From: a virus
Virus record (IMG/VR): IMGVR_UViG_3300042388_000128
Coordinates: 1-28,331 of that record
Reading direction: 5' to 3' (one strand)
Length of the DNA: 28,331 nucleotides
Shown here: one piece after another, positions 3,178 through 13,457 of the stretch
Layout: every line of letters starts with the position of its first letter
Numbering within the stretch: position 1 is the stretch's first letter
Notes under the pieces: model-generated
Told to the model about the DNA's origin: nothing
Seen by the model: only the letters and a program-made list of their open reading frames with translations
The model's database searches: none
Translations under genes and position numbers: made by a program

Positions 3178-5571
3178 TCACCTGGCGCGGGCGTAGTTGA
3201 AGGGCGATTCGGCGAAGGCGGCAAATACGATTTGGTTGCCATTTGTGTACGGATAGCGCAGCTTGATTCCATTAGACAGAAAATCAAATTCAACAGAGGT
3301 GAACTCTGCGCTTGACGAGCTAGCAAGCAGTAAGTTATCGCAGACATTTTCAGGATCTCGGCTTGAGTCATACATACCCCAGTTTCCTGTTGCGCTTGCG
3401 TTTTTGTATAGAAGGAAGCGAGGCCGAAATCCTAAATATGCAAATGCGTTGTCTGACGTTCCATTAGATGTAATTGATCCAAAACTAGAGTACCCGGATA
3501 CGGGGGCGAAGGCGTACACCACATACGTGCCACCGTTGGTATTCATCTCTGCTGAGCCAGCACTTACTGTTAGTACAGTTGATGTTGGTGATGTGTTATT
3601 CCAGAAGTTGGCACTTGTAATTGTTGCGTTTGTCAAATTAAGGCCAAGCGCGCCAGTGTTTCCTATTGCCGAGTGATACACATACCAGTTGGCTACAGCA
3701 TCTCTTCGCTTCACAATCATCATGCTTGGAACCACGCCAAGCCCATGGCCAACAGTGCCAGTGGTGCCTGTGCCCGTATAAGTGACAACGCTGAACCCCG
3801 CACTTGCATTAGCCCGCACCTGACTAGAGATGGAGCCTGATGTGTTCGTGACGGTGGAGCTGCCGGCGTCCCAGGTCCACCCCACATAGGTCTGAGATGA
3901 GCCATTAACTACGGTCGCATCCGAAGATCCTGCTACAACGGTAAAGTCTGCAGTTGAGGAGGTTGAAACATAACCAAACTGCTTAAATGCATCCTCTGCA
4001 CTGGTAGCGTTTGAGTACAGACTTTTATCAATGCCCCTCACCGTGTCTGCCAAGAGGTGGCCATAGGCTGCGCTGCGGCACTTAATCCAAACCAGATCCG
4101 GCGAGAAGCCCAACCCCGAGATCGTCTGGGTGCCACCATTGCCGCTCCAGGTCTTCGTATCAAAAACCGTGCTCGGCTTGACGACGGTGGGCGTGGGCAG
4201 GTTCTGCGTGCAGAGCGCCTTGAAGCCGCTGGGGGCCGTGTAGGCGAAGGCGAAGGGGCGTTGGCCGAAGTTGGCGACAGCAGATGCAGATCCAGAGCCA
4301 GAGCCGTGTTCTATAAAAGGCAAGAATCGGCCATTGTTTGCAAGTGAATAATTGGTTCCAACTTGTGTTCCATTTTTATACCAGCGGATTTGGCTGTTAT
4401 CCGCGTCGTACCCAACACCAATAATGTCATTTGTGGTAAAACCGGCGACTGCTGCAGTCTGCACGTCATTGATATAGATGTTCTGCCACCCACCTGTATC
4501 GTATCGATAATATTTGCTCCGCACGCCTGTTTGGTTGTCTACAACGCCAATTGAAAGTTCTCCGACACTAGTTACGGTTACTTCCCAATACCACTTGCCT
4601 GATGATGGTATTCCAACCGTTCCTTTGACCCCGGTAGCAAACGAGGATGAACCATTTATGGCAACATCAAGATTTCCATTAGTCAGTGTTGCAAACGAGG
4701 GTGCTGATAACGGATTCCAAGTGCAGTAATTCCCCCTCACCTCACCGCCCGCGCCAGCGTCTGTGCCGTAATTAGTGGGAACGTCTACAAGGCTGTCGTT
4801 GCCTGCACCAGCAGTGACGGACAAATTCGACGGGGTGAAGTTGTTCCCGTTCCCGCTAGTGTCCTTCCCTAATGTGGTCGCGGTTGCTGCACTGTTATCC
4901 GCGAACTCAAGGTGGAAGCCGTTAGTGCCGTAGCTGCCGGTGTATGCCTTGGGATTCCACACGCCGGTGGTGGCGTCGAACTCGCCGAATGCCGAGGGAG
5001 CAAGTTGCTGACCGTCAATCAGGTGGACATCGGCCAGCATGAAATTGCTGTAATAACTATAAGCATTGTTATATTTGTCTGCGCCTATATTGTGCTCGAC
5101 GTTATTGTTTACGGCGTAATCATAATTTTGCGTAGGATTATTAGACGTTGAAAATGTAGTTACCTCTGCTCCGTTGACGTAAAGCCTAACGCGCTCTGAA
5201 GCAGTTGCAAGTGTCGTGTCAACAGCAAGGCATATGTGCATCCATGCGCCGGGGTCTCGATATACGGCAGTCGTTTTTCGCCAGCCAGTGCCAGTTCCTT
5301 CAAATGAAAGTATGTCTGCACTTGTAAAGGTGAGCTGATTAAATGTTGCGTCTGTCGTGCCAGTTCCTGCAACAAACAAACGAGCAAACACGCCGAGCTG
5401 ATTTCGCTTTACCCACGCTGCCCAGGTCCAGGTGCGGCGGTTACCAGCAGATGCAGGTGTGCGGCTTAAGTAAGCAGAATCGGCGGAGTTGAAGCGTAGT
5501 GATCTACTCACCCGGTAGCCCGTGTCCTGCGAAGCAAGCAGCAGCGGGTTGGCGTTAGCGGGAACACCCAT
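3178..5571 (-). CDS. Large receptor-binding fibre or adhesin with LamG and SPRY domains
   Basis: The 797-aa product looks built from carbohydrate- or protein-binding beta-sandwich domains. About 20-215 is a LamG/concanavalin-like domain (SLRFNSADSAYLSRTP, then WTWAAWVKR, GAWMHICLAVD and RVRLYVNGAEV). About 280-455 is a B30.2/SPRY-like domain (GKWYWEVTV, NDIIGVGYDADNSQIRWYKN, FGQRPFAF). The remainder contains about three diverged repeats of a beta-rich unit, each with a 'hydrophobic-P-x-hydrophobic-hydrophobic-hydrophobic-h-K' strand (FSPDLVWIK, VPSMMIVKRR, FRPRFLLYKN) and an end like TYVGWTWDAG, TYVVYAFAP or QIVFAAFAE. The start overlaps the stop of the gene before it (TAATG). The base composition inside the gene is patchy, as in recombining fibre genes. 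It is probably the host-recognition protein; the ligand is unknown. Confidence 0.82.
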   Translation of the reverse strand: MGVPANANPLLLASQDTGYRVSRSLRFNSADSAYLSRTPASAGNRRTWTWAAWVKRNQLGVFARLFVAGTGTTDATFNQLTFTSADILSFEGTGTGWRKTTAVYRDPGAWMHICLAVDTTLATASERVRLYVNGAEVTTFSTSNNPTQNYDYAVNNNVEHNIGADKYNNAYSYYSNFMLADVHLIDGQQLAPSAFGEFDATTGVWNPKAYTGSYGTNGFHLEFADNSAATATTLGKDTSGNGNNFTPSNLSVTAGAGNDSLVDVPTNYGTDAGAGGEVRGNYCTWNPLSAPSFATLTNGNLDVAINGSSSFATGVKGTVGIPSSGKWYWEVTVTSVGELSIGVVDNQTGVRSKYYRYDTGGWQNIYINDVQTAAVAGFTTNDIIGVGYDADNSQIRWYKNGTQVGTNYSLANNGRFLPFIEHGSGSGSASAVANFGQRPFAFAYTAPSGFKALCTQNLPTPTVVKPSTVFDTKTWSGNGGTQTISGLGFSPDLVWIKCRSAAYGHLLADTVRGIDKSLYSNATSAEDAFKQFGYVSTSSTADFTVVAGSSDATVVNGSSQTYVGWTWDAGSSTVTNTSGSISSQVRANASAGFSVVTYTGTGTTGTVGHGLGVVPSMMIVKRRDAVANWYVYHSAIGNTGALGLNLTNATITSANFWNNTSPTSTVLTVSAGSAEMNTNGGTYVVYAFAPVSGYSSFGSITSNGTSDNAFAYLGFRPRFLLYKNASATGNWGMYDSSRDPENVCDNLLLASSSSAEFTSVEFDFLSNGIKLRYPYTNGNQIVFAAFAESPFNYARAR

Positions 5572-6113
5572 TACTTCACGTCCTTGATGAGCTGGGCGGC
5601 AATGCTGCCGGTGGTTCGGACCGCGTAGACCAGCACATCCACGGCGCTGGCAGCGGTGCTCAGCGTGGGTGCGGTGCCACCTGCGAAGTCCCAGTTGCTG
5701 CCGTAGGCGAGTGTGTGGCTGCCGGTGGTCTGCGTGATGTAAATGCAGCCGCTCTGGCCCGCCGTCAGATTGGTGGGGTTAGCGAGGGTGCGGTTGCCAC
5801 CGATGGACAGCGACCAGTTGTTTGACAAGCTGAAATCGGGGGTGATGGTGGCCCCGTCCGTCAGTGCCGTGATGGCCCCACGCTGGGCTGCCGTAAAGCT
5901 CTGCGCTACATCGGTCTTCGCCGTGTCCGCGTCATAAGCCTGAACACTGACGCCAATCGCGCTTTCCTTCAGCAGCGGGAAGCCGCCGGCGGTGCTGTTG
6001 TTGTGGACGACGACCGTGTTCTTCGTCGTGTCAACCGTGACCTCACCAGCCGCGCCGGTAAATGTGCTGTGTTCCGTGGTCGTGCCACGGCGTAGCTGAA
6101 CGCGAGTAGCCAT
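5571..6113 (-). CDS. Tail fibre protein with Mtd-like N-terminal domain
   Basis: The first 55 residues (MATRVQLRRGTTTEHSTFTG, then GEVTVDTTKNTVVVHNNSTA and GGFPLLKES) closely resemble the N-terminal beta-prism domain of the major tropism determinant Mtd of Bordetella phage BPP-1, as I remember it. That domain anchors the receptor-binding trimer to the tail. The middle (SVQAYDADTAKTDVAQSFTA) is a short segment common in fibre proteins. The rest is a beta-rich head of about 90 residues (LSIGGNRTLANPTNLTAGQS, CIYITQTTGSHTLAYGSNWD). There is no sign of the C-type lectin fold of Mtd at the C-terminus, so only the anchoring module is shared. It is 180 aa long and overlaps its neighbours by one base on both sides. 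Confidence 0.8.
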   Translation of the reverse strand: MATRVQLRRGTTTEHSTFTGAAGEVTVDTTKNTVVVHNNSTAGGFPLLKESAIGVSVQAYDADTAKTDVAQSFTAAQRGAITALTDGATITPDFSLSNNWSLSIGGNRTLANPTNLTAGQSGCIYITQTTGSHTLAYGSNWDFAGGTAPTLSTAASAVDVLVYAVRTTGSIAAQLIKDVK

Positions 6114-6337
6114 CAGACCAAGGCTCCGTAATCGAGGGCGCCATCGGTGGCACCAGTGATCAGTCCGTAGTCCTGATCGGCAAACGCAATCCGAATGATC
6201 TCAGGCGTGCCGTTGTCGCGCCGCATGAACAAGGCGCCGTCAAACGTGTTCATGCCGACCTCGCCCAGCGACAGATCACTGGTGGTCGGGACTTTGCCCG
6301 CGACGGCTGATCGCTTCAGCCTGATTGTGTTTGCCAT
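6113..6337 (-). CDS. Short fibre-module protein (74 aa)
   Basis: This gene codes for little more than the N-terminal adhesin module: MANTIRLKRSAVAGKVPTTS, then LSLGEVGMNTFDGALFMRRD and PEIIRI. The same module begins the two neighbouring fibre genes. The end reads DYGLITGATDGALDYGALV, with two DYG motifs. It has a good ribosome-binding site (AAAGGA, seven bases before ATG), so it is probably a real, expressed gene and not only a remnant. Short proteins of this sort are, from memory, common in cyanophage fibre clusters. It may form a trimeric adaptor between tail and fibre; that is inference. A truncated paralogue of its neighbours is the alternative. Confidence 0.75.
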   Translation of the reverse strand: MANTIRLKRSAVAGKVPTTSDLSLGEVGMNTFDGALFMRRDNGTPEIIRIAFADQDYGLITGATDGALDYGALV

Positions 6338-6375
6338 TTGGCGGTCCTTTGATGGCTATGTAGCCGGACTGAGCA

Positions 6376-7440
6376 CTAGAAAGTGCCCGCATCAATCGTA
6401 GCGTTGGGGCTCAGATAATCAGTGCCGTCAACTGCAGCGGAGAAGGCGGAAGTGCCGTTGCCTTTGACTAATCCAGTGAGGGTAGTTGCGCCAGTACCGC
6501 CGTCGCCAACTGCGAGGGTGCCGGTGATAGCCGAGGCGCCCAGATCCAGCGCCAGCTCGGTGCTCTCGATGACCAGGCCGCCGTTCGCCTTGAGGTCGAC
6601 GGAGAACTCAGAACCGACCAGATCCAGGCCGTTGCCGGCGGTGTAAGTGCTGCCAGTAGCAGCCACCGTGATGGTGCCGTTGCCGTTGGTGATCGTGACG
6701 CCGGCGCCAGCGGTGAGGGTTGCCTTGCTCAGGCTGCCGGTGGCGGTATTGCCGATCAGCAGTTGACCGTCGGTGTAGCTGGTTTGGCCCGTGCCGCCGT
6801 AGCCGGTAGCAATCGTGGTGCCCTGCCAGGTGCCGGTGGCAATGGTGCCAACGCTGGTCAGCGAGCTGCTGGTGACGCCAGAGCCCAGCGCAGAGCCGGA
6901 CAGCACCTGAGCGCCGTTGATGTAGTAGCTCTTGCCCGAGGCGAGATCGATGTGCTCGCTGCTGGTCCACGCGTCGGTGGCGTCGACCCAGTTCCAGGTC
7001 TTGTCCGTGGTGCCTTTCAGCGTGATACCGCCGCCATCTGCACCCGCGTCGGTCGGGCTGGCGACGCTGCCCAGCTCAATGTTCTTGTCGTCCACCGTGA
7101 CGGTGGTGCTGTTAACGGTCGTGGTGGTGCCGTTGACCGTCAGGTTGCCGCCGACCGTGACGTTTCCGGTGGTCGAGAGCGTGTCAACCGTGGCGCCGCT
7201 GAAGTTCAGGCTGCCGGTGAAGGTCTTGGCGCCGCTGATGGTCTGCGTGCCGGTCAGCGAGACATACGCGCCAGCACCTGCAATCGCCGGGATTGTGGTG
7301 GCATCGCCATTACCATCGGCGCCTTTGCCGTAATAAAGAACGTCGTCGACCTCGTTGTACGCCAGCTCGGCGTTCTTCAGCGAGGACGGGGCGCCAGCTG
7401 CACCGCTAACCCGACGCTTAATCCGCAGCGTGTTGGCCAT
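6376..7440 (-). CDS. Tail fibre protein, cyanophage-type repeat architecture (354 aa)
   Basis: The N-terminus is MANTLRIKRRVSGAAGAPSS followed by AELAYNEVDDVLYYGKG, the adhesin module shared with the next two genes. After that comes a low-complexity, Gly/Thr/Ser-rich fibre: NVTVGGNLTVNGTTTTVNST, VDDKNIELGSVASPTDAGAD, TLKGTTDKTWNWVDATDAW, GTIATGTWQGTTIATGYGG and GTGQTSYTDGQLLIGNTAT. These segments recur, from memory, in T4-like cyanophage structural proteins. Such repeats form trimeric beta-helices. The end, NATIDAGTF, resembles the DGGNF end of the upstream gene. There is no visible enzymatic domain. Fibre identity is firm; the position on the particle is inferred. Confidence 0.85.
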   Translation of the reverse strand: MANTLRIKRRVSGAAGAPSSLKNAELAYNEVDDVLYYGKGADGNGDATTIPAIAGAGAYVSLTGTQTISGAKTFTGSLNFSGATVDTLSTTGNVTVGGNLTVNGTTTTVNSTTVTVDDKNIELGSVASPTDAGADGGGITLKGTTDKTWNWVDATDAWTSSEHIDLASGKSYYINGAQVLSGSALGSGVTSSSLTSVGTIATGTWQGTTIATGYGGTGQTSYTDGQLLIGNTATGSLSKATLTAGAGVTITNGNGTITVAATGSTYTAGNGLDLVGSEFSVDLKANGGLVIESTELALDLGASAITGTLAVGDGGTGATTLTGLVKGNGTSAFSAAVDGTDYLSPNATIDAGTF

Positions 7441-7718
7441 CAGAAATTGCCTCCGTCAGCAAGTGTGAGCTTGGTGTTTAACGGGCCAGCGACGAACTTG
7501 GCACTAGGACCATCGTAGACAAGAACGCTGCCATCTACTCGACTCACAGCATCAACATCTGACAACCCTGCGAGTGTTCCAGTCCCGCCAGATGGACCCT
7601 GTGGACCAACCGTGGTGGCGGTAACAACAGTGGTCTGAGGTGTTTGAACAACCGTGGTGCGGCCTTCAGTTGTGACCTCGACGGTGTTGTTGACTGTGGT
7701 TACGTTGACGGAGGTCAT
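7440..7718 (-). CDS. Small fibre protein with short collagen-like segment (92 aa)
   Basis: The N-terminal half is almost only Val and Thr (SVNVTTVNNTVEVTTEGRTT), a beta-strand-rich stretch. A brief collagen-like segment follows (GPQGPSGGTG, about 38-47), then a fibre motif (LAGLSDVDAVSRVDGSVLVY) and the end KLTLADGGNF. The 'LSDVD...DGSVLVYD...KF' motif is one I associate with fibres of aquatic phages. It overlaps the gene before it by four bases (ATGA) and the one after it by one base. It is likely a trimeric linker or adaptor in the fibre cluster. Function is inferred from composition and neighbours. Confidence 0.7.
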   Translation of the reverse strand: MTSVNVTTVNNTVEVTTEGRTTVVQTPQTTVVTATTVGPQGPSGGTGTLAGLSDVDAVSRVDGSVLVYDGPSAKFVAGPLNTKLTLADGGNF

Positions 7719-8053
7719 GCCGTGTAACCCTCAGACACGTAGATGGTGCCCTCCAGGTAATACTCCTTCAAGCCCGAGGGGTTGGTGAGCAGCACGTCGT
7801 AGTACGCCTCATCAGGGAAGAGCGTGGTTTGCTCGTCCGTCAGCGAGATGGCAACGGTGCCTGTTACCCGATTGGTGTAGGTGACGGTGAAGTCTGCGTA
7901 CTTAGTTGTACGGCCTTGGTTCCAGACTTGCGCTGCAGCACTCCAGCCGGTCAGGTTGATTGCGGCGTCGTTGCTGTCCTTGAATTGCAGGGTGATGCTG
8001 TAATCCGCTCGGCGCTGGAGCGTGATGTTGTACTGGCCGGGCTGGATTGCCAT
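7715..8053 (-). CDS. Beta-sandwich structural protein, BppU N-terminus-like (112 aa)
   Basis: The sequence is a single beta-rich domain: YNITLQRRADYSITLQFKDS, AAINLTGWSAAAQVW, GTVAISLTDEQTTLFPDEAY and YYDVLLTNPSGLKEYYLEGT. The pattern 'x-G-D-x-x-h-x-h-x-h-x-D-x-x-G-x-x-h-x-L-T-G-W' resembles the Ig-like domain at the N-terminus of baseplate upper proteins such as lactococcal BppU. A perfect ribosome-binding site (AGGAGGT) lies five bases before the ATG, the strongest in this cluster, which suggests high expression. It could be a baseplate or fibre connector, or a neck decoration protein. The fold is inferred from strand pattern only. Confidence 0.65.
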   Translation of the reverse strand: MAIQPGQYNITLQRRADYSITLQFKDSNDAAINLTGWSAAAQVWNQGRTTKYADFTVTYTNRVTGTVAISLTDEQTTLFPDEAYYDVLLTNPSGLKEYYLEGTIYVSEGYTA

Positions 8054-8301: not shown

Positions 8302-9690
8302 TCAAAGCTCCGCGCTGTAGGTCATGGATTGAGAGCCTGCTGTGGTTTGCGAGTGAGCAACGCCATTGGCATCGAGCAGAGTGGCTGAATAGCCGGAGCC
8401 GCCGCCTGTTCGCGTCGGTGTTGCCCGCATGGGTCTGGGGTGGGTGTAGCTGGTGATTGCAGTGGTGGGGCCGACGTACTGCGTCGCGGCGTAGTAGTAC
8501 CGCTGGCACAGCGCCAACTTGGTGCCGTATGACGGATCCTCAAAGTCAGTGGCGAGGCTGTTCGTGGCTTCAGAATCCTCAAGCTGAACGCCGGTGATGT
8601 AGAAGGTTGCGCCGGATGTACCGACCCAAGACACGGCACCGTTCGGGGCGTGGTAGTTGCCGGATTGCCAAGCGTTGGTGGTGCCGGTCTGGAAGGTGGT
8701 GCCGCAGCCGAGGGTGAAGCGGATCCTGATGCCGGTGCCGCTGTCTTTCAGCCAAGTGCCGGTGGTAGGGCCGGGGATCTTCATGCTGATGCTGAGCCAG
8801 GTGTTGACGTTGCCAGCAGCCACCGTGAAGCTGGTCACATAGCTCTGGTCATTGGCGGAGTTCTGGATTGCTACGCCATAGGTGCCTGAAACGCTCGCCC
8901 TGACACGGAAGGACAGCATTACATCGCGTGAGTTGGCCGCACCCCAGCCCCAGTTAGCGACGCTGTTACCTTCAATTCGGTGCTGAATGCCTGCGTTATC
9001 GCCCGAAGCAACTGTATAGGCGGAGTTGTTTTCAAAGCCGAAGTAGCTATTGAAAAGGATCGGTGCTCCAACAGTGCCGGAGTTGTAGTTGCGCTGGCCC
9101 TTGACTGACATGGAGCCAACCGAACCGTATAGCCAACGATCAATGAAGTATGCGTTGCTGCCTAGCGGGTTAATTAAGGCCGAGTTGTTGTACTGATCAA
9201 CTGCGAAGTCACCGTTGATGACCTTGTTTTTAAAACCGAAGGGGCCGCCGTTGACGTTGGAGGCAATGAACGTGCTGTTGGCAGACAGCGTTCCAGCGAC
9301 GCTGAGGTTGCCGGTGATGGTGCCGCCGGTCAGGGGCAGGAAGCTGCCGGTTGCGGTGCTGTAGCCCTGGGCCTTCACCCACGCCGTCGTGGCGATGTTG
9401 GTGCTGTTGTCGGCAGTGGCGACGGTCGTGGCTGTGGCGGTGGCCAGCGAGGTGGTGCCGCTGACGGTCAGCGCGTTGAGTACATAGCCGCTGGGGGCAA
9501 GCTCGGCCCAAGCGTTGTTAGACCATTTCTGCCAGCGGCTGATCGAGCTGTTCCAGCGGATCGTGTTGGCAGGGATGTTGGTACTGGTCGTGCCGTCAAA
9601 CTGCTGCGCCAGATCCACGTCACGGTCTTTGACCTCGGTGACGAAGTTGGTGTAGGTGCTGGTGAGCTGCGGGTTTGACCAGTTAGCCAT
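8302..9690 (-). CDS. Tail fibre protein with C-terminal carbohydrate-binding-like jelly roll (462 aa)
   Basis: The N-terminal 70 residues (NPQLTSTYTNFVTEVKDRDV, NTIRWNSSISRWQKW) form an adaptor that recurs in phage fibres. Residues 70-150 are a Thr/Ala-rich shaft (NSTNIATTAWVKAQGY, FLPLTGGTITGNLSVAGTL), typical of trimeric fibre repeats. From about 152 the sequence KNKVINGDFAVDQ, AYFIDRWLYGS and, later, FYITGVQLEDSEATNSLATD and YGTKLALCQRYYY mark a jelly-roll domain found at fibre tips and often linked to sugar binding. The last 55 residues are an extra Gly/Ser-rich strand set. It directly follows the J-like tail tip gene and overlaps it by one base, so it is likely attached to that tip. The ligand is unknown. 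Confidence 0.86.
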   Translation of the reverse strand: MANWSNPQLTSTYTNFVTEVKDRDVDLAQQFDGTTSTNIPANTIRWNSSISRWQKWSNNAWAELAPSGYVLNALTVSGTTSLATATATTVATADNSTNIATTAWVKAQGYSTATGSFLPLTGGTITGNLSVAGTLSANSTFIASNVNGGPFGFKNKVINGDFAVDQYNNSALINPLGSNAYFIDRWLYGSVGSMSVKGQRNYNSGTVGAPILFNSYFGFENNSAYTVASGDNAGIQHRIEGNSVANWGWGAANSRDVMLSFRVRASVSGTYGVAIQNSANDQSYVTSFTVAAGNVNTWLSISMKIPGPTTGTWLKDSGTGIRIRFTLGCGTTFQTGTTNAWQSGNYHAPNGAVSWVGTSGATFYITGVQLEDSEATNSLATDFEDPSYGTKLALCQRYYYAATQYVGPTTAITSYTHPRPMRATPTRTGGGSGYSATLLDANGVAHSQTTAGSQSMTYSAEL

Positions 9691-12600
9691 CAGACTCCTC
9701 GTGCGCTCCAGCTAAAATCGCCACTTACTCGGGTTCCCGCTGCATCAAAGAGGAGCACTTTGAAGCTTGTGGGGTAAGGGACATCACTGAAATCATAAAC
9801 CGCTAGGTAAGCGGAAGTCGTCTTGGGCGTCACCGAAATGGCCTGTACATCGACGAAGATGGTGTTGAAGTTGACCGTGGTGCCTCCGCTATCACCAGCG
9901 TTGGCGTACCCAGTGCCAAAGTCCTGCTTCAACTTGGCATCGACGCGAATGTTGAGTGACGAAGCAGTCAGCAGGTCGTCACCTCCAGCCGAAGCAAAGT
10001 CGTAGCGGATCTTGGCGTAGCGGAAATTGGTGGCGTAGACCTCGCTTAAACCTGGGTAGTCGGTCCAAGTGGTGCCATTGAGTGAGGTGCTCAGCGTTGG
10101 TGTCACAGTCAGCGCCCCAGCCACCACCTGACTGGTCAGGGTTGCGGTCACTTTTGAGCCCGCCAGTGTGCCGAGAGTATCGACTACCTCTTCGTAATAG
10201 CCCGTCGTGGCAGACGGCATCGCGTAGTAGGGGTAACCAGCGCTGACTTGGTTTTGCAGCGTCGTCCAGCCGCGGCTGGTGAAATGGCTTTGCCAGGTCT
10301 CGGTGGTATTGACCGCTGCGACAAGGTTGCCGCCTTCAACAGCGACGTTGCTCTTCGTGCCGTTAAAGGTGCTGTTTGTGTCGAGCTTGAGCTGGTAGTC
10401 GGGGGGTTGGTTGACCACAGCTGCGACGGAGCCCGGTGTGCCGTAGTTGCCGGCTGAATCGATGCCTGCCAGCCAGTAGGTGTAGGTGCCGGAGGCCACC
10501 TCAAACACCGAGGTGAAGCGCCCTTGTTTGGTGCCGATCACCGTGGCCGTGGCCCAGGCGTTGCCTTTGCGCAGTTCGTAGGCGTCGATGGGCAGGGTCT
10601 GGGTGCAGTCGTTCCACTGCAGCAGCACGTTGTTGTCGATTACCTGCTGGGTGATGCTGGGCTGGGTGGGAAGGTTGACCTGTGCGTCGGTTTGGCCTGC
10701 TGCACCAACGTTGCCCTTGGCATCGACTGCCGCCACGAACCACCGGCGCACGCCAGACCAGTTGGCCTTGGTCAGGAACACCGTGCCCTGCACCGTGCCT
10801 GCGGGTGTGGCCGTCGCCCAGGTGGACGAGGTGGTTCCGTAGCGCAGCTCGTAATACTGCGTGGACAGGCTGCCGGCCACTGCGCTCCACTGCAGCTCCA
10901 CGTCTGTGCCCTTGAAGGTGTTGGTGACCGATGGAGCAGTTGCGGCGCCAATGGTTATCGAGGCGCTGGCTGCTGTGGTCGAGTACACCTCTGAGGTGTC
11001 GAGCGCCTTGATGTACCAAGTGATGGTGCCGGTGGGCAGCAGGCCGATCTTGGCGGAGGTGGTTTGGAACAGGCCGATCTTGGTGCCCGTGCCCCAGCTG
11101 TTGCCTTGCCAGATTTCGTAGCCCTGCAGGTCCAGCTCGGTGCTTTTGTTCCAGTTCAGCGTGACGCCAATGTCTGGGTCGAGCACTGCGGTGAAGCCGG
11201 TGACAGCAGCTGGAGGTGCCGTCTTACCCAGTGCCGTGGTGCTGCCCTGCAAAGGCGAAGCAGATGGAAGTTCGGCGGAGTTGATCGAAAAGATCCGGTA
11301 CTCGTAGAAGCCAGGTGTGGTGTTGAGGATTTCGTGGAGCGGGCCGCGGACGCGCTCGACGTTCCAGTTGCCTTTGTCCTTACGCCATTGCACTTCGTAC
11401 TCGCTGATCCCAGGCACAGGCAGCCATTCGGCGCTGAGCTTGGAGCGCACGTCGTTTTGGTAGGTATAAAGCGACTCTGCAAAGGTCAGTGACGATGGTG
11501 TGGCGGGGATCTGGTTCAGCGTCGTGACAGACCGGGCTTGGAGCGCAACGCCGCGTTCCACGTAGTTGTATTTCCCGCTATCCCAAGCCAGGGCCGTGAT
11601 TGCGTACTGACTCGGCTCTTCTTCTTTGACGCTGAGCACCCTCCAGCTGGTGGGAAGGATGGCATCGTTCTGGAACAGCCAAGCCGCGTTGACGTTGGGC
11701 GCGGTTGCAAAGGCACTACTTAGCGTGAGGATGTTGCCGCTGATGCTGGAAACACTGCGGTAGTCGACCGTGCCGTCGGGCAGCATTACGTACAGGCGGG
11801 GATTGGTGCCGAGGGTCAAACCAGTGGCGCTATCAAGCGTGATGGTGGAACCGCTGACTGCCTTGATCCGGCCGCCGCGCCTCACGCCAGATCTCACCGG
11901 GTCGGCAATAGCGATGATCTGACCAGGGCGCACCAACACGCCAGCCTCGATGGATGCGGTAAAAGACACCACCTCGGTTTCGTATCTCTCGGAATACAGC
12001 AACCACTCACCCAGCCGATGCGCTTGACCACGACTGGTGCAGGCAAATGCCTCGATCTCCTTGGTAACAACGCCGTACTTGGCGATGGCGGCCTGGTCCT
12101 CAACTACTTCATAGGCGTAATCCCGCAGTGCAAGGTCGAAGTATTTGACCACCGCCACGGTTGAACGCGTCTTCTGCGAGCTGCCCGAGTAGGTGAAGCC
12201 TTGCTCGGTGACGTTGCTGAGACTGAAGAAATAGCTGCGGGTGCCGGGTGCGTCTTGGGTCAGCGTCAGCGAGCCGGCCGACCAGTAGGGCATAGCCCGG
12301 AACACCGAGCACATGTCGTTGACCAGCTTGTAAGCGTCCTCGGCGGTCTGGATATTGACGTTGCAGGAGAAGCGGGGTTCGTAATTGCCCAAGCCATCGG
12401 GGATGCCGTGCCGGCCGGTGGTGGCGTTGTAGTCGTTGGTGCTGCCGCCGGGACGGGTGTTCAGAGCACTGCAGTACACCGAAGCGGCGTAGAAGGACCA
12501 CTTGTCCAGCTGCGTGGAGTTGAGGAACTGCCCGAAGCCATAGCGCGTGCTGGTCAGCAAATCCCAGAGGCACCAGGCGGGGTCGGAGGTCCACTGCGCT

Positions 12601-13457
12601 GCAGCAAAGGTGCCATCCCAGACGCCGCTATAGATCAGCGCACCAGTGGTGGAATCGACGGTTGCGTTACTGGGGATACGAACCTTGATGCCACGAATCA
12701 GGTAGCTGCGGGTAGGGATGCTGCTGAACTGCTCAGCATCGATGCGCATTGCCACCAAAGCCGAGTTGGGATAACGCAGCTTCTTGTATGTGATCTCCGT
12801 GTAACTGGTCCAAGAAAAGGCGTTGGTCAGCTTCGGGTCAGTGCTATCAGCGGTAATGCGCGTAACGCGCACGTTGACGGGGAACGGCCCGCTTAGGCCG
12901 ATGATGTAATCACGCTGGTAGGCGTCTCCGGTGCGGCCAGTAATCGTGTCCTCTACGCGAGTGACAAAAGCGCCACCGTTGACTTGAGTGGAGATCCTCA
13001 GCTGAATGCTGGAGCCATTTACGTCGCCTTCGTTGCTAATGCTTTGAAGTTGCGGGACCGTGATCGTGACGCGAACCGCGTTGGTGTCGGTGGCCGTGAT
13101 ACTGCGCGTTACCGGAGTGCTCTGAGCGACAGTGACATTGACTGGAACTTCGTTGGCAATTTCAGCTGTACGAGGGATGAAAGCCTGGTTCTGCGTTCCA
13201 TTCCGTGTGACATATTCAAAACTTTGGAAGTTGTAGCTGTTGTCTGCATTTTGTAGCGGGGTGTTATTGAGGAAGATCGATTTAGCGCCGTCTTTTAAAC
13301 CTTGAATCTCACCTTCGCTGAGCAGGTCAATCAGTTTTGCGTATGACCGACTATCAAGACTGTCGGCTGCGGTCGAGGGGGTGCGCTGACTACTGCCGCC
13401 GCCGCCCTTGCCGCCGCCTCCGCCACCACCGCCACCAGCACCGATAATCCGTGTCAT
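9690..13457 (-). CDS. Tail tip host-specificity protein (lambda gpJ type)
   Basis: At 1255 aa this is the longest gene and matches the J family, the central tip protein that contacts the receptor. It starts with a striking glycine tract (residues 7-21, broken by one lysine). Conserved segments follow: DSRSYAKLIDLLSEGEIQGL, SIFLNNTPLQNADNSYNFQ and, near 280-330, YSGVWDGTFAAAQWTSDPAW, CLWDLLTSTRYGFG. The region to about 640 holds the tail-hub domains. Four fibronectin type III repeats then follow, beginning near 647, 747, 837 and 930 (conserved patterns such as VTLNWNKSTELDLQGYEIW and VELQWSAVAGS). The C-terminus (about 1020-1255) is beta-rich and probably the tip or fibre-attachment part. It lies downstream of I with an ATGA overlap, as in lambda. 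Confidence 0.94.
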   Translation of the reverse strand: MTRIIGAGGGGGGGGGKGGGGSSQRTPSTAADSLDSRSYAKLIDLLSEGEIQGLKDGAKSIFLNNTPLQNADNSYNFQSFEYVTRNGTQNQAFIPRTAEIANEVPVNVTVAQSTPVTRSITATDTNAVRVTITVPQLQSISNEGDVNGSSIQLRISTQVNGGAFVTRVEDTITGRTGDAYQRDYIIGLSGPFPVNVRVTRITADSTDPKLTNAFSWTSYTEITYKKLRYPNSALVAMRIDAEQFSSIPTRSYLIRGIKVRIPSNATVDSTTGALIYSGVWDGTFAAAQWTSDPAWCLWDLLTSTRYGFGQFLNSTQLDKWSFYAASVYCSALNTRPGGSTNDYNATTGRHGIPDGLGNYEPRFSCNVNIQTAEDAYKLVNDMCSVFRAMPYWSAGSLTLTQDAPGTRSYFFSLSNVTEQGFTYSGSSQKTRSTVAVVKYFDLALRDYAYEVVEDQAAIAKYGVVTKEIEAFACTSRGQAHRLGEWLLYSERYETEVVSFTASIEAGVLVRPGQIIAIADPVRSGVRRGGRIKAVSGSTITLDSATGLTLGTNPRLYVMLPDGTVDYRSVSSISGNILTLSSAFATAPNVNAAWLFQNDAILPTSWRVLSVKEEEPSQYAITALAWDSGKYNYVERGVALQARSVTTLNQIPATPSSLTFAESLYTYQNDVRSKLSAEWLPVPGISEYEVQWRKDKGNWNVERVRGPLHEILNTTPGFYEYRIFSINSAELPSASPLQGSTTALGKTAPPAAVTGFTAVLDPDIGVTLNWNKSTELDLQGYEIWQGNSWGTGTKIGLFQTTSAKIGLLPTGTITWYIKALDTSEVYSTTAASASITIGAATAPSVTNTFKGTDVELQWSAVAGSLSTQYYELRYGTTSSTWATATPAGTVQGTVFLTKANWSGVRRWFVAAVDAKGNVGAAGQTDAQVNLPTQPSITQQVIDNNVLLQWNDCTQTLPIDAYELRKGNAWATATVIGTKQGRFTSVFEVASGTYTYWLAGIDSAGNYGTPGSVAAVVNQPPDYQLKLDTNSTFNGTKSNVAVEGGNLVAAVNTTETWQSHFTSRGWTTLQNQVSAGYPYYAMPSATTGYYEEVVDTLGTLAGSKVTATLTSQVVAGALTVTPTLSTSLNGTTWTDYPGLSEVYATNFRYAKIRYDFASAGGDDLLTASSLNIRVDAKLKQDFGTGYANAGDSGGTTVNFNTIFVDVQAISVTPKTTSAYLAVYDFSDVPYPTSFKVLLFDAAGTRVSGDFSWSARGV

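Follow-up and report, generated by a model that had tools for sequence, protein, structure and literature searches.

The window analysed here, the entire IMG/VR virus record IMGVR_UViG_3300042388_000128 (28,331 bases; the record may be a fragment), carries three consecutive fibre genes on its minus strand: gene 1 (6376..7440), encoding a fibre protein of 354 residues, gene 2 (6113..6337; 74 residues) and gene 3 (5571..6113; 180 residues). The three proteins start with related N-terminal modules. In this window and across related loci, the last residues encoded by the preceding gene tend to show one of two motifs, and which of the two is found depends mostly on the module class of the next gene. 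Judging from sequence, we consider it likely that the proteins join in series, a C-terminal plug entering the N-terminal socket of the next protein, and that gene 2 serves as an adaptor. The order of plugs and modules in the window is ..LADGGNF, gene 1, ..IDAGTF, gene 2, ..LDYGALV, gene 3. The first of these plugs belongs to a 92-residue 'starter' protein (7440..7718, minus strand), which has an N-terminus of its own and a collagen-like GPQGPSG stretch.

Gene 3, gene 2 and the Mtd_N alignment served as queries in scans for related loci, the best 80 per scan being kept. The resulting 239 loci (L002-L160 and L171-L250 in our numbering; many contigs appear more than once in the scan lists), ten named phage regions, L001 and the window make up 251 records. 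They contain 395 module matches, 393 at a start codon, two at the edge of an open reading frame (ORF) and none internal. As upstream gene we took, in place of a curated gene, the longest ORF whose end lies near the module start; there was none for 18 of the 393 first-set module starts. The class labels KRS, MTD, LRRD and QLKRG and the motif labels G and Y are our own. Regular expressions for the motifs, G (DGG[TSN][FY], before KRS modules) and Y (D[YFL]G[AST][LIV], before Mtd_N modules), were written on this first set, so its counts are descriptive and the held-out counts are the test.

At gaps of up to 100 nucleotides (nt), KRS modules of the first set were preceded by G in 97 of 144 cases and never by Y, and Mtd_N modules by Y in 78 of 117 and by G in 14. 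G also stood before all seven modules of a third class, QLKRG. After clustering, which was based on gapless identity of C-terminal stretches and not on phylogeny, the motif was present in 92 of 142 genes before KRS or Mtd_N modules, compared with 10 of 676 controls. The split between classes was 49 G and 0 Y before KRS, and 2 G and 41 Y before Mtd_N. Seven of the 16 distinct control matches in this test precede starts that look module-like by eye, and these were retained as controls.

The association recurs in held-out loci. These came from bacterial genomes and a new viral scan, using only upstream genes unlike the first set; 30 of the 199 held-out module ORFs were without an upstream ORF and three more, having no start codon, were dropped. 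With the expressions frozen, G preceded 37 of 49 KRS modules and Y none, and Mtd_N modules were preceded by strict Y in 11 of 33 cases and by G in one. A relaxed Y expression, made after viewing the bacterial-genome loci, added seven Mtd_N cases; controls matched in 4 of 199 with the strict expressions and in four with the relaxed one. Replication is thus good for the KRS rule and weaker for the Mtd_N rule, in part because distant Mtd_N loci from bacterial genomes have variants such as IDLGLAS. We used 50 of the 52 bacterial-genome loci (L303 and L304, whose match covers only residues 29-50, were omitted); 10 had no upstream ORF, and the remaining 40 gave 10 strict Y and one G.

The dependence on the next gene is clearest where the class of a gene's own module is held constant. 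In first-set and held-out loci pooled, with a G expression that also allows Glu in first place (as in our list of arrays), genes with a KRS module ended in G in 67 of 70 cases (0 Y; 30 of 32 when clustered) if a KRS gene followed, and in Y in 26 of 28 (0 G; 7 of 9 when clustered) if an Mtd_N gene followed. With the own class fixed at KRS, the motif tracks the module of the next protein. That the preceding C-terminus varies with the following module class points to an end-to-end joining of the proteins.

A C-terminal motif next to a start codon could also be a by-product of the Shine-Dalgarno (SD) sequence of the next gene. The codons of the starter plug ADGGNF (7443..7460, minus strand) include GGAGG, usable as the gene 1 ribosome-binding site. 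At gaps of 20 nt or less, counted as distinct pairs and not as clusters, SD-like codons are present in 12 of 24 KRS motifs and in 54 of the 76 motifs found among 93 Mtd_N pairs. KRS pairs with gaps above 20 nt, however, keep the motif in 73 of 86 cases, with SD-like codons in only 6 of the 73, which rules out the by-product as a full explanation, and the class split would be left unexplained by it. We consider this account very improbable. The protein motif seems to be primary and to double as a ribosome site where genes touch, as at 7443-7460. For Mtd_N modules the two causes are harder to separate, because most Mtd_N pairs touch.

Alternatively, a plug and the next module may travel as one recombination segment and be correlated without binding. 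Mosaic exchange at this locus is seen in a sister contig (L082/L002), where the gene before gene 1 shares its C-terminal half, nearly unchanged, with the 92-residue gene of the window and has a different N-terminus, a fourth module of the IQLRRDTAANW type; plugs also sit on C-termini that are otherwise less than 40% alike. On the other hand, the motif recurs with varied codons and at gaps of up to 100 nt, it is found in T4-type phages beside gp36-like proteins of differing length, and linkage without selection should, we infer, decay. Such hitchhiking is improbable as the source of the pattern.

The modules themselves are homologous. The starts MANTLRIKRR (gene 1), MANTIRLKRS (gene 2) and MATRVQLRRG (gene 3) had been read, from the sequence alone, as one duplicated N-terminal attachment module, and this part is supported by Pfam, by comparison with Mtd and by profile-profile scores; a search of the N-termini did not find them unrelated. 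Comparison of the first 50 residues gave 99.6% for genes 1 and 2, 87.5% for genes 2 and 3 and 64.3% for genes 1 and 3, all three alignments beginning at residue 1 and spanning 39-43 columns. A bridge module of the IQLRRDTAANW type matches all three at 95.7-99.5% and is itself a Pfam Mtd_N domain (65 bits in the L002 copy). Module-module scores exceeded 15.1, the best score among 84 module-versus-control comparisons, in 14 of 15 cases, the remaining one being 14.2 (gene 1 against a single-sequence profile). Fourteen control profiles were used, five of them single-sequence, and the top six controls aligned over 6-16 columns.

By these profiles, genes 1 and 2 are related strongly to each other and moderately to gene 3. 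Neither gene 1 nor gene 2 matched Pfam Mtd_N (PF18454) at E up to 1, and searching PDB sequences with the KRS alignment A2 gave no matches. Both carry a divergent version of the module, aligned in register, and this version is also the one at the N-terminus of T4 gp37. The KRS-class module comprises residues 1-43 in gene 1 (7312..7440, minus strand) and residues 1-50 in gene 2 (6188..6337, minus strand), the latter matching the T4 gp37 profile at 99.9% over 48 columns. Predicted strands fall in similar places in gene 2 (residues 7-9, 27-29, 36-41 and 45-51) and gene 3 (8-10, 25-28 and 33-36). Of the finer features in the sequence-only reading, the alignment of strand motifs in register stood, with the gene 1 pair corrected, on inspection of the alignments by eye, from Asn-Glu to Ala-Glu (residues 24-25); on the same inspection, the proposed D/N-G turn after the second strand is clear in gene 2 only.

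In the serial arrangement, every fibre protein, probably a trimer, would have the N-terminal module at its proximal end as a docking socket, which would grip the short C-terminal plug of the protein encoded by the preceding gene. KRS-class sockets would accept DGG-type plugs and most Mtd_N-class sockets DYG-type plugs. A single fibre could then run from an LtfC-like base through the 92-residue starter, gene 1 and gene 2 to gene 3 as the distal tip: the starter (DGGNF) would dock into gene 1 (KRS socket, DAGTF), gene 1 into gene 2 (KRS socket, DYGLITG..DYGALV), and gene 2 into gene 3 (Mtd_N socket, no plug).

In gene 2 the module stands by itself, followed only by a short C-terminal tail. Its residues 56-74 form a double plug, DYGLITGATDGALDYGALV (6116..6172, minus strand), and tandem plugs are found in relatives. 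The combination of a KRS socket with a DYG plug suggests an adaptor that would put an Mtd-type tip on a KRS-type fibre. The adaptor recurs in matching loci (alignment A3): residues 1-73 or 1-74 are matched at 70-96% in at least 19 loci, and by our count 13 further arrays have the order gene 1, an adaptor of 74 to 78 residues with a DYG plug, and an Mtd_N gene. The Mtd_N genes after a small adaptor fall into five BLAST classes over 19 contigs, from the 180-residue kind of the window up to 681 residues, three running off the contig; a Peptidase_S74 chaperone was present in two of three such relatives scanned. The tandem plug (DYGLITG..DYGALV type) was found in 19 of 41 clustered Y-plug proteins versus 0 of 49 G-plug proteins. 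A reverse adaptor, with an Mtd_N socket and a G plug, precedes a KRS gene in L253. Some bacterial-genome loci (L286 and L287) have three plug copies.

Several observations weigh against this arrangement. A recognised plug is absent from 50 of the 142 clustered upstream genes, about a third, and by the strict expressions the plug of the expected class is absent from 12 of 49 KRS and 22 of 33 Mtd_N cases in the held-out loci. LRRD modules were preceded by a motif in none of five cases in the first set and none of three held out. Pairs of Mtd_N genes (n=25) gave 14 G, 11 neither and 0 Y, and Mtd_N genes before KRS genes (n=11) gave 2 G and 9 neither, some with ends like ..YDASGTLLN; given these exceptions among genes whose own module is Mtd_N, the rule is well supported only where a gene's own module is KRS or where it has none. 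Ends like ..YVVII precede genes of the S-SSM7 type, and the motif is also present in some module genes with no detected module gene next, 25 of 119 when counted as distinct and 10 of 78 after clustering. Among the 58 KRS pairs whose gap is at most 20 nt, the motif is present in only 24. The predicted model of gene 2 has low confidence at the plug end (the last two blocks have predicted local distance difference test scores of 53 and 42) and gave no Foldseek match in PDB under E 0.001, an Mtd chain ranking 48th at E 5.6; the best VIA-align hit among 411 of Foldseek's 415 chains was the collagen XVIII trimerisation domain (Z 4.0).

Part of this evidence would suit a parallel layout, in which the three proteins sit side by side on one type of tail-tip site, each held by its module as an equivalent anchor. 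The sequence-only reading had favoured such a layout, with three different heads and several receptor-binding proteins sharing one attachment site. It agrees with the homology of the modules and with the existence of several Mtd_N genes in a row whose proteins show no recognised plug (e.g. L220, L242, L245, L277 and L291), and two-protein branched fibres have been proposed for DT57C (PMC4728585 and PMC10713586; here and below, papers cited by PMC number are drawn on through extracts). The 'three heads' are not supported, because gene 2 has no head, and neither is the shared site, since the C-terminus before a module varies with the class of that module even when the own class is constant at KRS; the T4 gp36-gp37 pair is, moreover, serial (PMC3004832). 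We therefore regard the parallel layout as unlikely, although it may apply to the runs of Mtd_N genes that lack a plug.

Other recurring ends were noticed in the same loci. The C-termini VYNAAGTLLN and IYDASGTLLN recur before a KRS subclass (e.g. VVQLKRSET) in L173, L175, L195, L243 and L248, and may represent a third type of plug. Where three Mtd_N genes stand in a row, their proteins share other C-termini, namely GLRF.L..RV in L220 and L245 and EIYGFV in L242. A module-like N-terminus, RTPxRVARGTYSNLN..EGEICYATDQDK, and its kin, missed by the profiles, follow ends like DGGSFD in L058, L070, L075, L079, L105 and L108.

Gene 3 is the member closest to Mtd. As the sequence-only reading had noted, its start resembles that of BPP-1 Mtd, with 68% identity across the first 50 residues. 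These residues (5964..6113, minus strand) match Pfam Mtd_N (PF18454) with 54.9 bits against a cut-off of 26.3 (8.4e-15); comparison with BPP-1 Mtd (1yu0) gave E 2.5e-14, and the predicted model superposes on Mtd 1yu3 at 1.4 Å over 42 columns. Mtd_N is the sole Pfam domain of the protein, and a C-lectin domain was matched in neither Pfam nor PHROGs. An Mtd diversified by a diversity-generating retroelement would have a C-lectin domain with a variable region; in gene 3, residues 64-178 (5580..5924, minus strand) are instead phrog_4757 (6.6e-18), a beta-rich domain and probable distal tip. Scans of 26 ORFs of the window gave no match to a reverse transcriptase, repeats not having been searched and the record perhaps being a fragment. 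In Foldseek, the model of the complete protein loosely matched the Pa223 capsid spike 9ny6 (E 4.8e-4, 135 columns, root-mean-square deviation 10.4).

J-like, minor tail, tape measure, capsid, portal and terminase genes in the window indicate a lambda-like siphovirus, and megablast of window bases 1-25000 against phages gave no match. On the minus strand, a lambda J-like central fibre gene (9690..13457; phrog_31, 2.3e-240) is followed by a 462-residue fibre gene (8302-9690), an LtfC-like gene, the 92-residue gene, genes 1 to 3 and a gene for a 797-residue lectin-like protein. The LtfC-like gene (7715..8053; 112 residues) is a possible base of the fibre cassette; it matches Pfam LtfC (PF23926) with 31.5 bits (cut-off 27) and phrog_3304, 'L-shaped tail fiber protein assembly' (2.9e-13). 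One-base stop-start overlaps join the 92-residue gene to gene 1 (TGATG), gene 2 to gene 3 and gene 3 to the 797-residue gene, and genes 1 and 2 are spaced by 38 nt. Gene 1 matches phrog_30158 (unknown; 7e-33) and phrog_31660 (tail fiber; 4.8e-18). Its plug IDAGTF (6379..6396, minus strand) has no SD-like codons, and in relatives the C-terminus is DGGTF. In the 797-residue protein (3178..5571, minus strand), directly after gene 3, Pfam finds LamG, SPRY and DUF7483, and the module was not detected; this protein could be an adhesin in its own right. A dCTP deaminase gene (329-841; phrog_1663) adjoins an endolysin gene close to the end of the record.

The cassette of the window is of a known kind, that of multi-protein tail fibres and Mtd_N adhesins. 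For the paired C-terminal plug, the accessible parts of the open-licence PMC literature searched, also when queried by motif letters, do not describe the motif; the extracts of PMC13320782 (Peru-2), PMC13243795 (LSH1), PMC12309495, PMC11821841 (Sf14) and PMC4728585 (DT57C) do not touch on it. We lean towards a general code, with somewhat less assurance than for the serial order in the window. Ends of the form D-G-G-x-aromatic and D-aromatic-G-x-hydrophobic would dock into two socket classes of one superfamily across tailed phages. The code would take in T4 gp36-gp37 and BPP-1 Bbp9-Mtd as well as many marine phages, with small adaptors of the gene 2 kind converting one coupling into the other. 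If true, this would make the order of fibre subunits readable from sequence and permit its prediction in multi-protein fibres of uncultured phages. The class-dependent C-terminal motif links Mtd to the gp36-gp37 joint of T4, and the link is directly testable.

Among the systems compared, T5 and DT57C share with the window an LtfC-like gene, its domain above the Pfam cut-off. LtfC of DT57C is a dodecameric ring that holds fibre N-termini, and N-terminal strands of LtfA enter it (PMC10713586). Of 216 distinct arrays preceded by 1.5 kb or more of sequence, 51 have an LtfC-like gene no farther than 2.5 kb upstream of their first module gene, which fits LtfC as the base in some phages only. The neck fibre of A-1(L), gp82-gp81-gp80, has been modelled as trimers joined head to tail via N-terminal beta-hairpins (PMC10966104). 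It resembles our arrangement in this serial joining and is an analogue, not a relative: six module profiles gave no listed match to gp79-gp82, four proteins assigned from the genome record by length and order.

BPP-1 offers a closer comparison. Gene 3 shares Mtd_N with Mtd but has 180 residues, compared with 381. In BPP-1, bbp9, annotated as a putative tail fibre, precedes mtd, and Bbp9 has a DYG-type end, ADLGGIA. Besides this C-terminal copy, the motif occurs twice inside Bbp9 (L161:4459-5985), at residues 201 and 425, and these internal copies might be extra docking points for Mtd.

T4 is a myovirus whose gp37 is a fibre of 1026 residues, and the 74-residue adaptor was not found among its genes 34-38; in these respects it is unlike the window. 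It is alike in the gp37-type N-terminal module of gene 2 (residues 6-52 of gp37 score 43 bits against the gene 2 profile) and in the D-x-G-x-aromatic end upstream, DAGTF in gene 1 and DFGYY in gp36, whose C-terminus is QDFGYY; gp34 and gp35 end without a plug. The gp36-like upstream genes of T4 and eight other records, picked for divergence among 1255 with a gp37-like N-terminus, all end in D[FY]G[YTS][YF] (9 of 9); two of these records are Krischvirus phages, in which the gp36-like protein is longer. For the KLB1 record, which has no gp36 coding sequence, the longest ORF before the module was taken. In T4, trimeric gp36 binds the N-terminal region of gp37 (review, PMC3004832). As the sole relative of known assembly, the gp36-gp37 pair is serial, which counts in favour of a serial fibre in the window.

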